A stretch of 29,101 nt of DNA from IMG/VR virus record IMGVR_UViG_3300042731_001723, positions 1-29,101 of that record. One strand, given 5' to 3'. The translations under genes and the position numbers were made by a program. The DNA is from a virus. Positions 3,107-14,441 of this stretch are shown piece by piece (the stretch's first letter is position 1; each line of letters opens with the position of its first letter). The notes beneath the pieces are model-generated. The model searched no databases. It was given only the letters and a program-made list of their open reading frames with translations, and was not told the DNA's origin.

Positions 3107-3796
3107 CTAGAACTTAAATGGGCTATCAGACTTGCCTGACTGACTGTAGTATGCCTGTCGTATCGCCTCACGGTTCTGTGCATAAAATGCAGGGTCTGTG
3201 GCCCGTTGCAGAATGTCGTTAGGTACAGGCGCACCTGTCTGTGCTGCTACACCACGATTTGAGGCAGGTGCAGTCTGTGGGGTGACCTGTGGGGTGACCT
3301 GTGGGGTGACCTGTGGGGTCTGCATAGACTGGGCAGGCATCTGTGTCTGCTCTGCCGTATCTGCTACAGTAGGTGACTGAATGAACGGGCGCAGGACTGC
3401 AGGCGCAGTGTCAGGACTGTCATGAATAGTCTGCATCCAATCACTTAGAGACAGTTGGTCTTTTTTGGCACGGCCCTGCATCTCACGTTCATAGGCCCAT
3501 TCGACTGCATCCCGTACACCGTTGTCTGTGATGCCGTACTGACTGATGACTGTATGTCGTTCATATCTACTGTTAGCCGTAGTCAGTTCACCCCGTAGTG
3601 ATTCTACCTGTTTTGTCAGGTTATCGACTAGACCGATTTTTGCAGATGCCTCATCTAGACGGGCCTGATACTCTGACAGCTGTGATTCAGTTGCAGTCAG
3701 TTTCTCTGAGTATTTGGCGATTCGTTGTCTAACGATTTCATCTACGTGTGATTTAGCCACGTACTCTACACCGTCATGTGTGATAGTATTACTCAT
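3107..3796 (-). CDS. Capsid scaffolding protein
   Basis: 229 residues. Residues about 18-85 are strongly heptad-like and charged (coiled coil). A Gln/Pro/Thr-rich linker with four TPQV-type tetrapeptide repeats follows at about 163-180, and the C-terminus is short and basic (SGKSDSPFKF). This layout, directly after portal and shortly before the capsid gene, fits a scaffold that directs shell assembly and is then lost. No protease gene is visible in the window, so the scaffold may leave intact or be cleaved by another activity. The ribosome site is GGGAAAAAAGACA. A CAAAGGGAAAAAA leader is shared with the late gene starting at 28838. Confidence 0.75.
   Translation of the reverse strand: MSNTITHDGVEYVAKSHVDEIVRQRIAKYSEKLTATESQLSEYQARLDEASAKIGLVDNLTKQVESLRGELTTANSRYERHTVISQYGITDNGVRDAVEWAYEREMQGRAKKDQLSLSDWMQTIHDSPDTAPAVLRPFIQSPTVADTAEQTQMPAQSMQTPQVTPQVTPQVTPQTAPASNRGVAAQTGAPVPNDILQRATDPAFYAQNREAIRQAYYSQSGKSDSPFKF
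3275..3319. repeat. 12-bp tandem repeat encoding TPQV units
   Basis: CTGTGGGGTGAC is repeated three times (3275, 3287, 3299) and a fourth partial copy ends at 3319. The period is four codons, so copy number could change without frameshift. It lies in the linker of the scaffold gene. Confidence 0.9.
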
Positions 3797-3822: not shown

Positions 3823-5280
3823 TTAGAATGTTAGGTTATCCTGTTGGATTTTTAATAGTTCACGTCGTGCATCTGTGTCATCAAAGTCAGGGTGTAGAAT
3901 CTTCATTGCATCTACCTTTGAGATGAGGCCTGCAGCCAGTAGTGCTAACATGTTCTCACGTTGTTCTTTAGATTCCTGTGGTGACAGAGGTATAGCATGA
4001 TACTCTACTCTATAACCTGATTCAGGGTACGATGTACCTAGGTATCTATTTGAAATCTTTGCACTGATTTCTAGTGTCTCTACATCTGCACGTCTGAATG
4101 ACGGTGCGTATTTTCTCTGTGATTCACGTAGACTACTGCGACTGATAGCAATGGCATACCCTGACCGTGGGTCACCTGACATTTTCTGAACGTCTGCAGG
4201 ATTGATACCCATGTATGAACTGATGCGACGTTCATAGACTGTGATTGATTCTAGCATTTGACCCACGTCACCACCTGCCTGATACTGTCCTATCTGAGGC
4301 TGCTGCCCTGCCTGCAGGTCTGGGTCTGGGGTGAATACTAGAATAGATGCAGGGTCTGATGCGATAGCCTGTCTACGTGATTCTAGATTGTTATCAAAGG
4401 TGTCAAGGCCTGCAAGGGTCGCCCCCATTAAATACCTCTGTGGGTGACTGCAGTCACGGCATAGATGTAGAAAGTACGTGTACAGTACTGCTGCATTCAA
4501 GGCCCCCATAACACACTCACGGTTTGCGTATGCATCGAATAGGTGACCGTGTACCTCTGCATGATACAGACTGTACGGTAGAAACGGTTCACCTGCACTG
4601 TCTCTGTACGGGTACGATGCACCTGACATCTGTTGACCTAGGTATTTCTCAGTCACATCGTCTGCACGTTCACCGTTCTGATTCAGTGTGTAGATTTCAT
4701 ACACGGGGTTCTGTGGGTTCTCTATTGACAGGTAGTCTACTGTCCATTCATGTTTATTGCATTCATGACAGTACCGTAGTCGTGTCTCTTTGATAGTGTG
4801 TGGCCGTGACGGGTCGCCTGCAGAGGCCTCTGCATCTACCATGTCTACAGTCACGATGCGATACAGTAGGCCCTGACCGTCATCTGTCATGTCTACACGT
4901 ATCATGCATTCATTCATACCTAGGGTGTAATATTGTACTTTTTGCATCATTGACCACAGGCCTGCATCATTGACCAGACCCTCACGGCCTACCAGACCCT
5001 CTGCAGTCTGACCACCTGCCTCAGTCACACTGATAGTCGGTGGTTCTACGTACAGACCACACAGTGCATCTACTGATGCTTTGAATATGTTAGATGACAT
5101 ATCAGGTACACCCCACGCAGCCTGTCTAGATTCAGGTATGTGATTTGCTATCTCATCTATCAAGTCTTGCAGCCACTGGCCACAGAGCATACGTCTACGT
5201 AGACCACTGTGTTCTATTCGTCTCTGTGTGGCCTGATTCTGATTCAATGGCATAGGGGGGATTTGATTATTTGAATACAT
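3823..5280 (-). CDS. Portal protein
   Basis: 485 residues, the usual size for a portal. It lies immediately after terminase large subunit (3 bases between) and before scaffold. An N-terminal helical region (QRRIEHSGLRRRMLCGQWLQ) is followed by mixed alpha/beta segments. A C-terminal helical part contains MGINPADVQKMSGDPRSGYA, and an SGxA(I) segment at this point is frequent in portals of uncultured phages. The tail ends in a charged helix (LHPDFDDTDARRELLKIQQD). It would form the dodecameric ring at the unique vertex through which DNA is packaged. Assignment rests on synteny plus overall pattern. Confidence 0.8.
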   Translation of the reverse strand: MYSNNQIPPMPLNQNQATQRRIEHSGLRRRMLCGQWLQDLIDEIANHIPESRQAAWGVPDMSSNIFKASVDALCGLYVEPPTISVTEAGGQTAEGLVGREGLVNDAGLWSMMQKVQYYTLGMNECMIRVDMTDDGQGLLYRIVTVDMVDAEASAGDPSRPHTIKETRLRYCHECNKHEWTVDYLSIENPQNPVYEIYTLNQNGERADDVTEKYLGQQMSGASYPYRDSAGEPFLPYSLYHAEVHGHLFDAYANRECVMGALNAAVLYTYFLHLCRDCSHPQRYLMGATLAGLDTFDNNLESRRQAIASDPASILVFTPDPDLQAGQQPQIGQYQAGGDVGQMLESITVYERRISSYMGINPADVQKMSGDPRSGYAIAISRSSLRESQRKYAPSFRRADVETLEISAKISNRYLGTSYPESGYRVEYHAIPLSPQESKEQRENMLALLAAGLISKVDAMKILHPDFDDTDARRELLKIQQDNLTF

Positions 5281-9832: not shown

Positions 9833-10460
9833 CTAGCGATGTCAAGTCAGGTAGACCGTCACATTTTTTGATTGCAGGCAGAGGTTTGATTACCTGCATC
9901 ATCATCTGTATTTCATCTTGACGTGTGCTATAGATGTCCATTGACGGCCTAGACTGATTCACGGCCCACAGAAAACCGTACTCAGTCGATGTGATATCAA
10001 ACCGTACACCTGCAGCTGTGCCTCGCCAGTTATACTGTCTGTCTGACCAGTGTGATTTTACTGCATTGACAAAGGTCTGACCGTCGTAGTAAAAATGTAC
10101 ATCTGTCTCTGTATCTACGTACACCATGTAGGTAGGGGGGTGCACTAGGTATTCACTGTATGACAGTGACCCTAGTTGTACCAGTTCTGCAAAAAATGTC
10201 CGATACCTGCCCCCGTTTCTAGCAGATTTGACCTCTACTGTGAACGACTGAAAATAGTGACCTGTGACACCGTACCCTAGAATGTCAAAGGGTGAATCAG
10301 TTTTGATGTCACGGGTCAGTAGAACTGTGTCACAGTCCTGATGCCCTTTGAGTTTCGTATATGCATCTAGATTCCATATAGCAGTTTCCTGTACTGCTAT
10401 TTCAGACACTATGCCTCTAGTTTTATATTTTCTAAACTCTGCATCAGTCACAGGTTTCAT
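9822..10460 (-). CDS. PD-(D/E)XK-like nuclease
   Basis: 212 residues. An early segment SPFDILGYG followed about 17 residues later by FTVEVKSAR gives the D...ExK arrangement of PD-(D/E)XK nucleases. Residues after it (RYRTFFAELVQLGSLSYSEY) fit the helix and strand that follow in the fold. It directly follows the primase-helicase gene with an ATGA overlap, suggesting a role in phage replication, recombination or host DNA breakdown. The exact activity (Holliday junction, endonuclease or exonuclease) cannot be told. Ribosome site AGAGGTATGCACG. Confidence 0.6.
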   Translation of the reverse strand: MKPVTDAEFRKYKTRGIVSEIAVQETAIWNLDAYTKLKGHQDCDTVLLTRDIKTDSPFDILGYGVTGHYFQSFTVEVKSARNGGRYRTFFAELVQLGSLSYSEYLVHPPTYMVYVDTETDVHFYYDGQTFVNAVKSHWSDRQYNWRGTAAGVRFDITSTEYGFLWAVNQSRPSMDIYSTRQDEIQMMMQVIKPLPAIKKCDGLPDLTSLDVV

Positions 10461-12964
10461 CGTGCATACCTCTGTGTGTTAGGATTGAATCTCAGATGAC
10501 CACCGTCATATTTTTCATACAGTTCTGTCTGCAGTTCATCTGGCAAATCTGCAACGTCTACCCAGTCTAGACCGACTTGACGGATTTGTATAGGTCTGCC
10601 AGTGACATCGTCAAAACGTATCTCTACCTCTGTCTCTACATCACCTATCATGACACGTGACGGTATCACTACACCGTCGTCAATGCGTTCAGGGGCGATG
10701 TACCACCGGCCACGTATGCCGTTATATCTGCATTGTTTACCGTCATTCAACATCGTCACCCCTAGGTTTTTCAATGCCCCACTATACCACCTTAGATATG
10801 ATTTGGGTCTGACTGATTTGTGCCTTTTTACGACTGACCCTGAATCAGTCTCTACCTCCTCTGTATACACCTCATCTACCAGTTCAGATAGGGTGAATAC
10901 ACGGTCAGGGTTTTGGTCTAGCCATTCTTCTAACATTGTCACATGTACATCTACAGTCTCATATCTAGTATTTGACTGATTTGATGCATTCTGTTCATCA
11001 GGTGTGAGCCACCACTGTTCACCTGACTTGTACAGGTGTACGGCCTCTGCCCATATCGCATCACGTTCTGACTGCAGCTCTGATTCATCATAGGTGCGTT
11101 CATTTGGTACACCGCCTGTCTCAACGATCCAAAATCGTCTAGACCCTGTACTGTCCTGCAGTATCTCATCATCATTCACTGTACCCACGATGACAGAATG
11201 ACGGTGCATGACTACTTCTTTTCTGCCGTACTTAGGTCTGTACTGGTCTACCTGTGTCGTCAGGAACTTTTTGACATCTGCCACCTCTGAACGGTTCATG
11301 CCTGACAGTTCTGCCCATTCATGCACCCATGCTAGACGTAGTTTTGTCAGGCCGTCTACAGACTTGACATCTATAGCTGCATCACTGAAATATGACTGAC
11401 CAGACGGGTCTACACCTGCTAGGACTTTGAAAAATGTAGATTTACCTGCGCCCTGCATACCTTTGAGAATCAGCATGGTATCTACTTTGCACCCCCAGTC
11501 ATATGCACGTGCCACTGCAGAGATACCCCACCGGACTGCATACATTCTATTCATCTGTGTGTCTTTGGCATCTAGATACTTGACAAATAGATTCTGTAGA
11601 CGTGGTACACCATCCCATGTCAGGCCGTCTAGATACTCTACAAGTGTGTCACGTTGATTCTGATGACAGTACGCATCTACTGCATCAATCACATTCATTT
11701 TGCCCAGTCGTCTAGACGGGTAGAATCTACGACGTAGTAGAGACTGTATCTGTGTGTAGTGATAGTCTGCAAATCGTTCACCATTGTACCAGACATAGCC
11801 TGTACGTTTATCTGCCCATAGGTCTAGATTCAGTAGGCCTACCATGATTATCAGATTGTCTACTGTGTCTAGGGGTCGCCACTGGCCGCCACGGTTACTG
11901 TACGACACCTCTACACCGTGGTCTGATATGATGCAGTCATGATGTGTACGGTTTCTACCTGATGTACATCTGTATCTGCAGACACCTGTCAGAGTGTCTA
12001 CCCGTCTACTGATGAATGCACCCCCTACTGACTGACCACCGTCTGCAATACATTGTATATTACCTGAGGCATTCTTTTCAAGTGTAGACCAGTTCTGAAT
12101 ATAGTACATAAACGGTCTAGGTGTGCCTGTGGCATCTGTTATCATGTGTTCACCTGTCACCACGTCACGTCTGTACCGTTCAGGTGCATCGTCTGTATCT
12201 TGTACGGTGTCCTGTTCTCTACTTGTACTTGCAGCTGCAGGTGCAGAGACACGTGCAGGTCTGCCTGTGTTGATTGCATATCCTGCATCAATCAGTGCAG
12301 CAGTGTTGAAAATAGGCCCCTCTGACATCTGTATGAACTGCGTACCCTCTCTATCTGCACGGTATGACGGTTTGAACCACAGACGTGACGGGTCTTTAGT
12401 CGATTCGTCTAGATGAGGCATCATCTGTTCTATTGCATACCAGACCCCCCGTCTGTCATCTGTGATGTAGTCAGATGCCTGTACCGGTTCATCGAATGGT
12501 ACAATGATTCTGAATGCACACAGACCACCCTTTGCAGGTGATTTGTGACTGAACGATGAATAGGCCACATGGCAGATACCATCGAATGCAGACAGTGTGG
12601 CCTGCATCTGTTCATCAGTCAGGCCGTCAAAGTCGAATACCATTGCATGAACGGTCTGTACCTTTGACTTTGACCGTGCGCCTGTCGTATCTGTCCACGT
12701 CACCGGTGCAAATATGCCTACAGACATTTTTCCGTGTTCTGTGATTTTGCCCTTTTTCTCAGTCTCAGACAGGTCGTCTACACGTAGCATAGATGAGACG
12801 ACTGATGACAGATTGACTGGCCGTGTCTGTGCATACTGCAGCTGCGTAGTTTTATACCATTGAGCACCTGTAGGGGCAGGGTGATGAGTGCAAATAAGTG
12901 TCCATTTTTCAGGGTGATAGTGTGTGTCAGTTAGGTATTTTTGTGATATACTGTATTCAGTCAT
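10457..12964 (-). CDS. Replicative primase-helicase, AEP-like plus VirE/SF3-type
   Basis: 835 residues. The N-terminal third resembles archaeo-eukaryotic-type primase domains fused to phage helicases: VFDFDG (109-114), YSSFSHKS (135-142) and FRIIVPFDEP (151-160). The C-terminal part is a VirE/SF3-like ATPase: TWDGVPRLQNLF (449-460), Walker A GMQGAGKST (502-510), the acidic strand VHEWAEL (547-553) and GTVND (594-598). A Cys/His cluster (CRYRC...HHDC, about 329-344) may bind zinc. It should prime and unwind phage DNA at the nearby DnaA-box region. First gene of the middle unit. The ribosome site GAGGA is rather far (about 10 bases) from the ATG. Confidence 0.85.
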   Translation of the reverse strand: MTEYSISQKYLTDTHYHPEKWTLICTHHPAPTGAQWYKTTQLQYAQTRPVNLSSVVSSMLRVDDLSETEKKGKITEHGKMSVGIFAPVTWTDTTGARSKSKVQTVHAMVFDFDGLTDEQMQATLSAFDGICHVAYSSFSHKSPAKGGLCAFRIIVPFDEPVQASDYITDDRRGVWYAIEQMMPHLDESTKDPSRLWFKPSYRADREGTQFIQMSEGPIFNTAALIDAGYAINTGRPARVSAPAAASTSREQDTVQDTDDAPERYRRDVVTGEHMITDATGTPRPFMYYIQNWSTLEKNASGNIQCIADGGQSVGGAFISRRVDTLTGVCRYRCTSGRNRTHHDCIISDHGVEVSYSNRGGQWRPLDTVDNLIIMVGLLNLDLWADKRTGYVWYNGERFADYHYTQIQSLLRRRFYPSRRLGKMNVIDAVDAYCHQNQRDTLVEYLDGLTWDGVPRLQNLFVKYLDAKDTQMNRMYAVRWGISAVARAYDWGCKVDTMLILKGMQGAGKSTFFKVLAGVDPSGQSYFSDAAIDVKSVDGLTKLRLAWVHEWAELSGMNRSEVADVKKFLTTQVDQYRPKYGRKEVVMHRHSVIVGTVNDDEILQDSTGSRRFWIVETGGVPNERTYDESELQSERDAIWAEAVHLYKSGEQWWLTPDEQNASNQSNTRYETVDVHVTMLEEWLDQNPDRVFTLSELVDEVYTEEVETDSGSVVKRHKSVRPKSYLRWYSGALKNLGVTMLNDGKQCRYNGIRGRWYIAPERIDDGVVIPSRVMIGDVETEVEIRFDDVTGRPIQIRQVGLDWVDVADLPDELQTELYEKYDGGHLRFNPNTQRYAR

Positions 12965-13008
12965 GGGGTCGTGTCCTCATTGATTTGTTTTATTGATTTG
13001 TTGTTTTG

Positions 13009-13039
13009 GCCTGTACATCATCTGATGTGCAGGCTTTTT
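13009..13039 (+). terminator. Strong hairpin with T run at the start of the primase leader
   Basis: GCCTGTACATC (13009-13019) pairs with GATGTGCAGGC (13024-13034), with one G-T wobble, followed on the plus strand by TTTTT. Read in the plus direction it is a classic intrinsic terminator, though no plus-strand gene precedes it closely. Read in the minus direction it forms the first bases of the predicted primase transcript. Both roles are possible. Confidence 0.6.
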
Positions 13040-13081: not shown

Positions 13082-13218
13082 TGTCACACATAAAAAAACC
13101 ACGGTGTGACACACTGTCACGGATAGACACCCAGTGCAGGTATGTGTGACACCATGTATGACACTCTGCAGGGCCTGTGGCAGACGGTATCATAGCATAC
13201 CTGTCATACTGTCACACC
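13082..13218. promoter_or_regulatory. Array of GTGTGACA / TGTCACAC elements
   Basis: The 8-mer GTGTGACA occurs in one or the other orientation at 13082-13089 (minus), 13104-13111 (plus), 13144-13151 (plus) and 13210-13217 (minus), with one more at 13318-13325 inside the start of the acidic gene. The second copy is part of a perfect inverted repeat GTGACA-CAC-TGTCAC (13106-13120). Clustering upstream of the primase promoter and beside the origin suggests binding sites for a phage regulator or initiator. Confidence 0.55.
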
Positions 13219-13227
13219 ATATACTGA

Positions 13228-13246
13228 AAAAAAACATTTTATTGAA
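13228..13246. other. AT-rich stretch beside the origin region
   Basis: The run from 13226 to 13247 (GAAAAAAAACATTTTATTGAA) contains only two G and one C in about 20 bases, within a genome of near-balanced composition. It lies about 480 bp from the DnaA-box array and could be a DNA unwinding element. The distance is larger than in typical bacterial origins, so this is tentative. Confidence 0.3.
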
Positions 13247-13250
13247 ATCA

Positions 13251-13284
13251 GTGCCAAATAGGTCAGATTCTGTATATTTGGCAC
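13251..13284. promoter_or_regulatory. Perfect 10-bp inverted repeat upstream of the acidic gene
   Basis: GTGCCAAATA (13251-13260) and TATTTGGCAC (13275-13284) are exact reverse complements with a 14-base spacer. The right arm overlaps a TATATT (-10-like, 13273-13278). The site ends 31 bases before the start codon at 13316, so it is a likely operator for this gene. Confidence 0.6.
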
Positions 13285-13315
13285 GGGATATAGAGAATGT
13301 GTAGAGGTGGCATCT

Positions 13316-13723
13316 ATGTGTGACACCTGTGACAGGCCGTCTGGCATATGCTACAGTCATTCTATGAGTACAGATGACATGAACATAGTGACCCTAGTCA
13401 GAATGATGATGCGTGGCATCAGAACAGATACACCGATAGACCCCCTGCAAGCTGCTGCACACTTTGAACAGGTGCTACAGACAAATCTAGACCTAATGTA
13501 CACTCACAGACTGGGTGCAGGCTACGTACATGATGATAGTGAACCTGTATTGTATGCAGAGTTCACTGTAGACGGTGTGACCTTTGATGAACATCATGAA
13601 CATGATGACACTCTACGGGTGATACAGTGCGCACTGCACACACTGACACACTGTGAACAGATGCACCTGCAGCTGCAGCAGACACCTGATGATGATGACA
13701 GTGAATCTGATGAATGGGTATAG
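13316..13723 (+). CDS. Very acidic, lysine-free protein next to the origin, unknown
   Basis: 135 residues from the ATG at 13316, which has AGAGGT seven bases upstream. The in-frame GTG at 13307 lies within that ribosome site. The sequence has no lysine, six arginines and about 26 Asp/Glu, ending in QTPDDDDSESDEWV. His is frequent (DEHHEHDD), and four Cys lie near the start or in ALHTLTHCEQ. This composition is like that of DNA-mimic proteins that block restriction or other DNA-binding enzymes, but no family is recognised. Plus strand, with its own inverted repeat upstream. Its stop codon abuts the first DnaA box, so it may instead act in replication control. Confidence 0.7.
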   Translation: MCDTCDRPSGICYSHSMSTDDMNIVTLVRMMMRGIRTDTPIDPLQAAAHFEQVLQTNLDLMYTHRLGAGYVHDDSEPVLYAEFTVDGVTFDEHHEHDDTLRVIQCALHTLTHCEQMHLQLQQTPDDDDSESDEWV

Positions 13724-13875
13724 TTATCCACAGGTGTGCATAAGTTATCAACAGGTCTAGAATGCCGTGTGTATGGAGGCTATCAGAGTTATCCACATAG
13801 TTATCCACAGGTGTGCATAAGTTATCCACATAGTTATCCACAGGTGTGCATAAGTTATCCACATAGTTATCCACA
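13724..13875 (+). other. Predicted replication origin: DnaA-box array
   Basis: TTATCCACA, a perfect DnaA box, occurs at 13724, 13789, 13801, 13822, 13834, 13855 and 13867. A near match (TTATCAACA) is at 13745. All are in the same orientation. From 13788 they form a 33-bp tandem repeat with two boxes per unit, 12 and 21 bp apart alternately. The 21-bp linker contains GGTGTGCATAA. Such clusters bind the bacterial initiator DnaA, so the phage probably uses host DnaA to open or load its own origin, with the primase-helicase at 10457. Alternatively they titrate DnaA away from the host. Confidence 0.8.
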
Positions 13876-13880
13876 GGCAC
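13788..13880. repeat. 33-bp tandem repeat, nearly three copies
   Basis: Units start at 13788, 13821 and 13854, the last one ending early after its second DnaA box. The first two copies are identical. A diverged, shortened version lies at 13724-13756. 33 bp is close to three helical turns, so every unit would present its boxes on the same face. Confidence 0.9.
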
Positions 13881-13906
13881 AAAAAAACCCCAGTACATGA
13901 CTGGGG
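13881..13906 (-). terminator. Intrinsic terminator of the early unit
   Basis: On the minus strand CCCCAGT (13906-13900) and ACTGGGG (13894-13888) form a perfect 7-bp stem with a 5-base loop, followed by seven T. It lies 29 bases after the stop at 13935 and ends early transcription before the DnaA-box array. Confidence 0.9.
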
Positions 13907-13934
13907 CCTGATACATCTGCAGATGTGGACTAGA

Positions 13935-14441
13935 TTATTTGTCACCTGCCTGCAGGTCTAGAGTAGACATCTGACCTAGCATGTCAGTCAGGGTACACTG
14001 TTCATGACTTGACATCACCTCTGCTACCTGATGCCAGTTTGCCACATTTGGCAGACGTTCATCTGTTAGCCAGTGATGCAGGGTCACACGTGAGATACCT
14101 ACTGCATCACAGATAGTAGCCTGTGTCAGTCTGTGCTTTGACATCATTGCATCTAGCCAGTCACCAAATGTCATGTCGATGCCTGCCTGATGTAGAGATA
14201 GTATGAATGTACGTGCATCATTGTATGAATAACACTGTCTTTTATTTGAGTGATCTACACCTGCAAATGCATGCCATACAAAGTCACCCTCATCTGTACA
14301 GTAGAGTACGTCTATCTGACCTACCTGCAGACCGTTAGAATGTACCTCTATGATTTGTGTGTGTCTCTGTCGTGCAGCTACTCTGCCGTACATTCTGATG
14401 TAGTCTCTGGTAGATTTTGATTCTAGTTCTGTGTGTCTCAT
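13935..14441 (-). CDS. Two-domain HTH protein of the FGDW group
   Basis: 168 residues. The N-terminal half (1-90) is an unrecognised domain (VAARQRHTQIIEVHSNG, VWHAFAGVDHSNKRQC). The C-terminal half is a helix-turn-helix: FGDWL at 92-96, TICDAVGISRVTLHHWLTD at 109-127, LTDML at 151-155. The HTH aligns without gaps to those at 9560 and 7876. Last gene of the early unit, followed by a strong terminator. The ribosome site GAGGA and start lie in a 19-bp sequence repeated at the previous junction. Probably a regulator. The N-terminal half may sense a ligand or bring dimerisation. Confidence 0.7.
   Translation of the reverse strand: MRHTELESKSTRDYIRMYGRVAARQRHTQIIEVHSNGLQVGQIDVLYCTDEGDFVWHAFAGVDHSNKRQCYSYNDARTFILSLHQAGIDMTFGDWLDAMMSKHRLTQATICDAVGISRVTLHHWLTDERLPNVANWHQVAEVMSSHEQCTLTDMLGQMSTLDLQAGDK

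Follow-up and report, generated by a model that had tools for sequence, protein, structure and literature searches.

The locus and its array of DnaA boxes

The window, by which we mean the whole 29,101-nucleotide stretch analysed here (positions 1–29,101 of the virus record IMGVR_UViG_3300042731_001723), carries a compact array of DnaA boxes on its plus strand (13724–13875). The surrounding region is an early regulatory one, and the terminase genes are about 6 kb away. On one side lies the minus-strand gene (10457–12964) of an 835-residue PrimPol-VapE (SF3-type) primase-helicase, which matches PHROG helicase/primase families and contains a VapE-like helicase domain (PF05272, E = 5e-73, residues 445–669). 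A match to PDB 7pds (E = 1.7e-38) extends over the VapE helicase part only; the PrimPol label of the N-terminal half is based on the PHROG primase matches and on a reading of its motifs. Upstream of the helicase gene is a cluster of seven GTGACA/TGTCAC motifs (13082–13334), within which a dyad (GTGCCAAATA..TATTTGGCAC; 13251–13284) sits beside a T-run. A hairpin (GCCTGC...CAGGC; 13008–13035) is also present in what is presumably the 5′ leader of the helicase gene; five of its base pairs are invariant in nine sequences while the loop is variable, and a plus-strand scan lists it as terminator-like.

The immediate neighbour of the array is a plus-strand gene for a small acidic protein (13364–13723), of 119 residues if counted from a conserved ATG, with the reading frame open from a GTG at 13307. 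The protein has a conserved DDDDSxxDEWV-like tail, and no Pfam or PHROG family was found for it. Its AlphaFold2 model (mean pLDDT 81) matches two unnamed viral proteins in a fold search (E < 0.001), and no PDB entry at E ≤ 0.001. The TAG stop codon of this gene (13721–13723) is itself part of a repeat copy, the array starting directly after it. Beyond the array is a minus-strand gene for a helix-turn-helix protein (13935–14441; below the Pfam cut-off), followed by its intrinsic terminator (13885–13909, minus strand). The preliminary description placed the array between the stop codon of a plus-strand gene and a terminator that would, with it, end transcription from either side. These positions are right, but the terminator acts on the leftward gene, and since a terminator scan found none on the plus strand between the small-gene stop codon and the array, rightward transcripts probably run into the latter. 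A search for the host by way of prophages found no terminase relatives in genome contigs; among cultured phages, the terminase matches listed are at most approximately 26% identical, and there were no portal matches.

The array comprises eleven boxes. Seven are exact forward copies of TTATCCACA (13724, 13789, 13801, 13822, 13834, 13855 and 13867) and one is a forward TTATCAACA box (13745), so that the seven exact boxes and one near match described previously within 152 bp were all recovered; the remaining three, reverse TTATGCACA boxes which fit TTATNCACA (13735, 13812 and 13845), had been overlooked, and the earlier assignment of all boxes to a single orientation was mistaken. Most of the array is built from the 33-bp tandem repeat noted before (AGTTATCCACATAGTTATCCACAGGTGTGCATA; 13787–13877), which is perfect (2.8 copies, 100% identity), and in which each unit contributes three boxes, ordered forward–forward–reverse, with steps of 12, 11 and 10 bp. 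The 12/21-bp alternation noted before holds for the forward boxes, but begins at 13789, not 13788. Relative to the first box, the eleven start at offsets of 0, 11, 21, 65, 77, 88, 98, 110, 121, 131 and 143 bp. Every start is thus no more than 1 bp off a multiple of 11 bp, including across a 44-bp (4 × 11) step that encloses a box-free stretch of 35 bp (13754–13788). Elsewhere in the window, a second perfect tandem repeat (12 bp, 3.8 copies; 3275–3319) lies within the open reading frame 3107–3796, where it encodes a TPQV repeat.

In 2000 first-order Markov shuffles, exact boxes averaged 0.38 per whole window and never exceeded two in any 152-bp stretch, in agreement with the earlier statement that the array is denser than chance. 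Sites fitting TTATNCACA averaged 2.2 per shuffled window, compared with 10 in the array alone, which holds 10 of the 12 such sites in the window together with one TTATCAACA box. Chance origin and plain tandem duplication were both rejected on the evidence of these shuffles and of a reversed-pattern control (see below). Binding sites for host DnaA are a sensible reading of the array, given the exact boxes, their 11-bp lattice and the predominance of 11- or 12-bp spacing in 119 viral loci; the assignment is made from the box consensus and arrangement only.

No AT-rich unwinding element adjoining the boxes was found in 60-bp blocks over the array, which have an AT content of 53–60%; a value of 68% is confined to 13020 and 13200, two positions within the repeat region. 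GC skew, proposed earlier as a check for an origin near 13.8 kb, proved uninformative, as did GC3 skew, with no clear switch in the window. Single-strand folding of the array is unremarkable on the plus strand (z = -0.4) and modest on the minus strand (z = -1.9), an Rfam search gave no match, and a role as a single-stranded DNA hairpin or primosome site was rejected, the folding not being convincing.

Presence and absence of the array among VapE phages

The comparison covered nine phages (G000–G008, some of them fragments) that have this PrimPol-VapE helicase, at 65–81% identity to that of the window; the longer contigs measure 26–30 kb, with circular permutation between them, and one (G001) has a 99-bp terminal repeat. 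A search of related phages for the same array, suggested by the preliminary description, found it in five of the nine, with 11 (G000), 10 (G003), 10 (G006), 8 (G007) and 7 (G004) boxes when up to one mismatch is allowed; G004 has an additional near-box CTATCCACA 52 bp from its array. A sixth (G002) retains a decayed pair of boxes, and the array is absent from G001, G005 and G008, none of which has a near-box cluster anywhere in the available sequence. The array-less phages include a 29.8-kb genome with terminal repeats, and the replication genes of all three, and of G002, are intact as far as the contigs reach. The earlier note had named related phages with intact replication and no array as evidence that would tell against an origin. 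G001 and G005 are such phages, as is G008 as far as its fragment extends, and this absence among relatives with the same replication system speaks against a DnaA-dependent origin.

In a six-gene tree the array-less phages form a single clade (support 100), so that the array would most simply be ancestral, lost once, and decaying in G002, the placement of which has a support of only 68. No other gene content separates array-bearing from array-less phages, and no substitute gene exclusive to the latter is evident. In G001, a DNA methyltransferase-like gene (3974–4900) is inserted at the position occupied by the array in relatives.

Exact forward boxes are kept in five relatives, with variation in the linkers (tag/gag/aag/gac) and in the reverse box, which is TTATGCACA in the window and TTATCAACA in the relatives, at an identical relative position. 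The arrangement of the region is also variable. Relative to the helicase, the small gene has the opposite orientation in G002, G003, G006 and G007 to that in the window, and G004 carries the array the other way round with respect to the small gene; boxes in both orientations could allow the segment to flip by recombination. The array ends approximately 80 bp from the dyad/repeat region in G003, G006 and G007, and lies about 440 bp or more from the dyad in the window, with a gene between.

The dyad/repeat region behaves differently. All nine phages have the dyad, with small variations, beside the T-run and accompanied by 7–11 GTGACA/TGTCAC motifs in 260 bp upstream of the helicase, and the region was found in none of 18 relatives or fragments lacking this helicase, other VapE helicases included. 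Since the dyad and repeats track the helicase type and the array does not, we regard the region at 13.08–13.33 kb as a candidate origin or operator of the PrimPol-VapE protein, and as a better candidate than the array for the phage's own origin.

Scanning for the three-box unit yielded 19 stretches, and revealed a second clade (L215, L216, L219, L222, L223, L226, L227 and L229) with a shorter VapE helicase, approximately 32–36% identical over the matched part. All except L223 encode the same small protein (54–59% identity). In this clade the array starts no more than 4 bp from the VapE stop codon and is followed by the small gene, with a second array 3′ of the small-gene stop codon in L215, L216, L219, L222 and L226. 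The layout of L229 resembles that of the window, with a three-box island, a 44-bp step and the forward–forward–reverse unit; a 44-bp step is also seen in G003 and throughout the clade except for L223. Read by eye, not by scan, the 44-bp gap resembles a hairpin with a T-run in G003 and most second-clade arrays, and does not in the window. In L218/L060 an array lies just 3′ of VapE, and in G023 three boxes follow directly after the helicase stop codon. G017 has the same helicase and small genes, separated by approximately 20 bp, and no array. The arrays of these VapE phages thus occupy the replication module, yet come and go.

Box arrays in unrelated phages

Three exact boxes within about 60 bp occur in at least 120 stretches of viral contigs, compared with one for the reversed-pattern control, which suggests a general phenomenon, not a curiosity. 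For most same-strand neighbours in the 119 listed loci the spacing is 11 bp (126 pairs) or 12 bp (89 pairs). A wide variety of genes flank these arrays, most often terminases, endolysin/peptidases and RusA-like resolvases; neither DnaA nor DnaN is among the best 25 flanking families listed, and contamination of the viral matches by host oriC was rejected for this reason.

Cultured phages with clusters of at least three boxes include the T7-like Berlinvirus phages P483, A7, nasanit and NJ2, Lactococcus phage AM1 (949 group), a Klebsiella Molineuxvirinae phage, Vibrio phage BD5, and the Arthrobacter phages Tiff81 and Seahorse, in which the clusters are at or near the record ends. In four Berlinvirus loci (L205, L207, L208 and L214) the boxes lie between the packaging gene and the early genes. 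A microvirus (PQ006258, L212) has five exact boxes at 11–12 bp spacing (1783–1837) that abut the stop codon of its replication initiator (rep) gene. T5-like phages appear in the similarity list; all that BF23 shows is a cluster of near-boxes, in its terminal repeat. Neither T7-type nor microviral replication is known to be initiated by DnaA.

Proposed capture of host DnaA and alternative roles

The array more probably serves as an optional element for catching DnaA than as an origin for the phage's own replication. The explanation that we prefer, tentatively and at a little short of an even chance, is that it is a genuine array of host-DnaA sites, an optional accessory that captures DnaA, mainly for titration, and not an indispensable origin. 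Its geometry would seat DnaA about once per helical turn, and, multiplied by the number of phage genome copies, could gather host DnaA into an ordered oligomer. The chief effect would be to draw DnaA off host oriC; DnaA delivered beside the phage replication genes may also aid phage initiation. Initiation by the phage itself would most likely involve the PrimPol-VapE helicase acting at the dyad/GTGACA region. The origin proposed in the preliminary description is partly upheld, in that the DnaA-site reading is sensible, but relatives without the array leave an origin at this place unestablished; the titration that it mentioned alongside direct recruitment of DnaA fits at least as well.

E. coli datA requires an IHF site between its boxes. 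The array of the window differs in having no IHF site (at least 8 of 9 consensus positions), in being more regular and richer in exact boxes, and in being phage-borne, not chromosomal. Matches at 8 of 9 positions occur in the 44-bp gap of G003 and within the boxes of L229; the idea that the conserved 44-bp gap holds an IHF site like that of datA was rejected, there being none in the window. What the array shares with datA and other titrating clusters is the presence of several close, high-affinity boxes, able in those clusters, and predicted here, to bind many DnaA molecules (PMC5835720). Added DnaA boxes titrate DnaA in E. coli (PMC5835720), which, together with the occurrence of arrays in phages that initiate without DnaA, favours capture, as do the dispensability of arrays among close relatives and their independence of initiator type. 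Several observations weigh on the other side. With eleven boxes per genome, the number of sites is small before the phage has multiplied its genome many times, the microviral array touches the rep gene, and in several lineages of this family the arrays keep their place beside VapE and the small gene, which argues against a pure sponge, as that needs no such place.

DnaA boxes have already been reported in a few phages, namely in the T5-type region considered below. What the present array adds is a compact, near-perfect and helically phased element that is gained and lost among close relatives, constituting a natural deletion series that could separate removal of DnaA from the host chromosome from its borrowing for a phage origin. 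A broader proposal, which we think rather doubtful, is that such arrays are a widespread, convergently acquired device for commandeering host DnaA, as sponge or docking site, also where replication needs no DnaA, and that the version in the window is an invertible cassette in which the small acidic protein cooperates.

The nearest competitor to capture is a plasmid-like accessory origin element, which we consider unlikely on balance but a serious possibility, in which array-bound host DnaA and PrimPol-VapE at the nearby repeats would together open or load the phage origin. DnaA boxes beside iterons assist the origins of plasmids P1, F, R6K and pSC101. The phage arrays partly resemble these, with DnaA boxes near a replication gene and, at distances that vary, short repeats: VapE is no more than approximately 1 kb away in the clade of the window, the second clade and L218/L060, and the dyad is close by in the three phages noted above. 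They differ in being dispensable among relatives (absent from three of nine, decayed in a fourth) and in lacking an adjoining AT-rich stretch, and in the window a gene separates the array from the repeats; nor does GC3 skew show a switch. In addition, P4-type alpha initiators are not known to need DnaA. P4 and the PrimPol plasmid pRN1 are like the window in combining a primase and an SF3-type helicase in one protein and in having conserved repeats or stem-loops near its gene, a likeness limited by the PDB match of the window protein covering the VapE helicase part only. In pRN1 (PMC4234260) the origin lies 3′ of the rep gene, which, with the adjoining of arrays and VapE, keeps the accessory origin close to titration in standing; the same work names a stem-loop as that origin, not DnaA boxes such as those of the window.

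A role in transcription control, with DnaA on the array serving as a roadblock or operator and early expression depending on host DnaA, appears improbable. It is suggested by the way in which arrays fill the intergenic gaps around the small gene, beginning at stop codons and, in the second clade, flanking the gene on both sides; the terminator-like hairpin in the 44-bp gap of the second clade and G003, and the lack of a detected plus-strand terminator ahead of the array in the window, are consistent with it. In the window and in G004, however, the small gene has the array at its 3′ side, not at its promoter, and G017 retains the helicase and small gene with no array.

Still less probable is that the array is a T5-like genome-entry signal, a structural repeat, or the site of a phage protein which merely resembles DnaA boxes. 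The injection-stop region of T5-type phages has been described as containing repeats and DnaA boxes, with a role for the latter only proposed (PMC13250531), and has in common with the window that DnaA boxes and repeats occur together in non-coding phage DNA; arrays at or near record ends, as in Seahorse and Tiff81, would also suit an entry signal. The T5 boxes, however, are in the first-transferred terminal repeat, whereas the array of the window is in the replication region, some 6 kb from the terminase genes. The folding scores argue against a structural repeat, and the identity of the exact 9-mer in unrelated phages with many different hosts suggests that the ligand is a conserved host protein.

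That the array is a functionless short tandem repeat, its DnaA-box-like words multiplied by slippage, is barely credible: copies are indeed homogenised within a genome, but the exact boxes persist from one relative to another despite variation in the linkers and reverse box, and box clusters outnumber those of the reversed-pattern control by at least 120 to 1.
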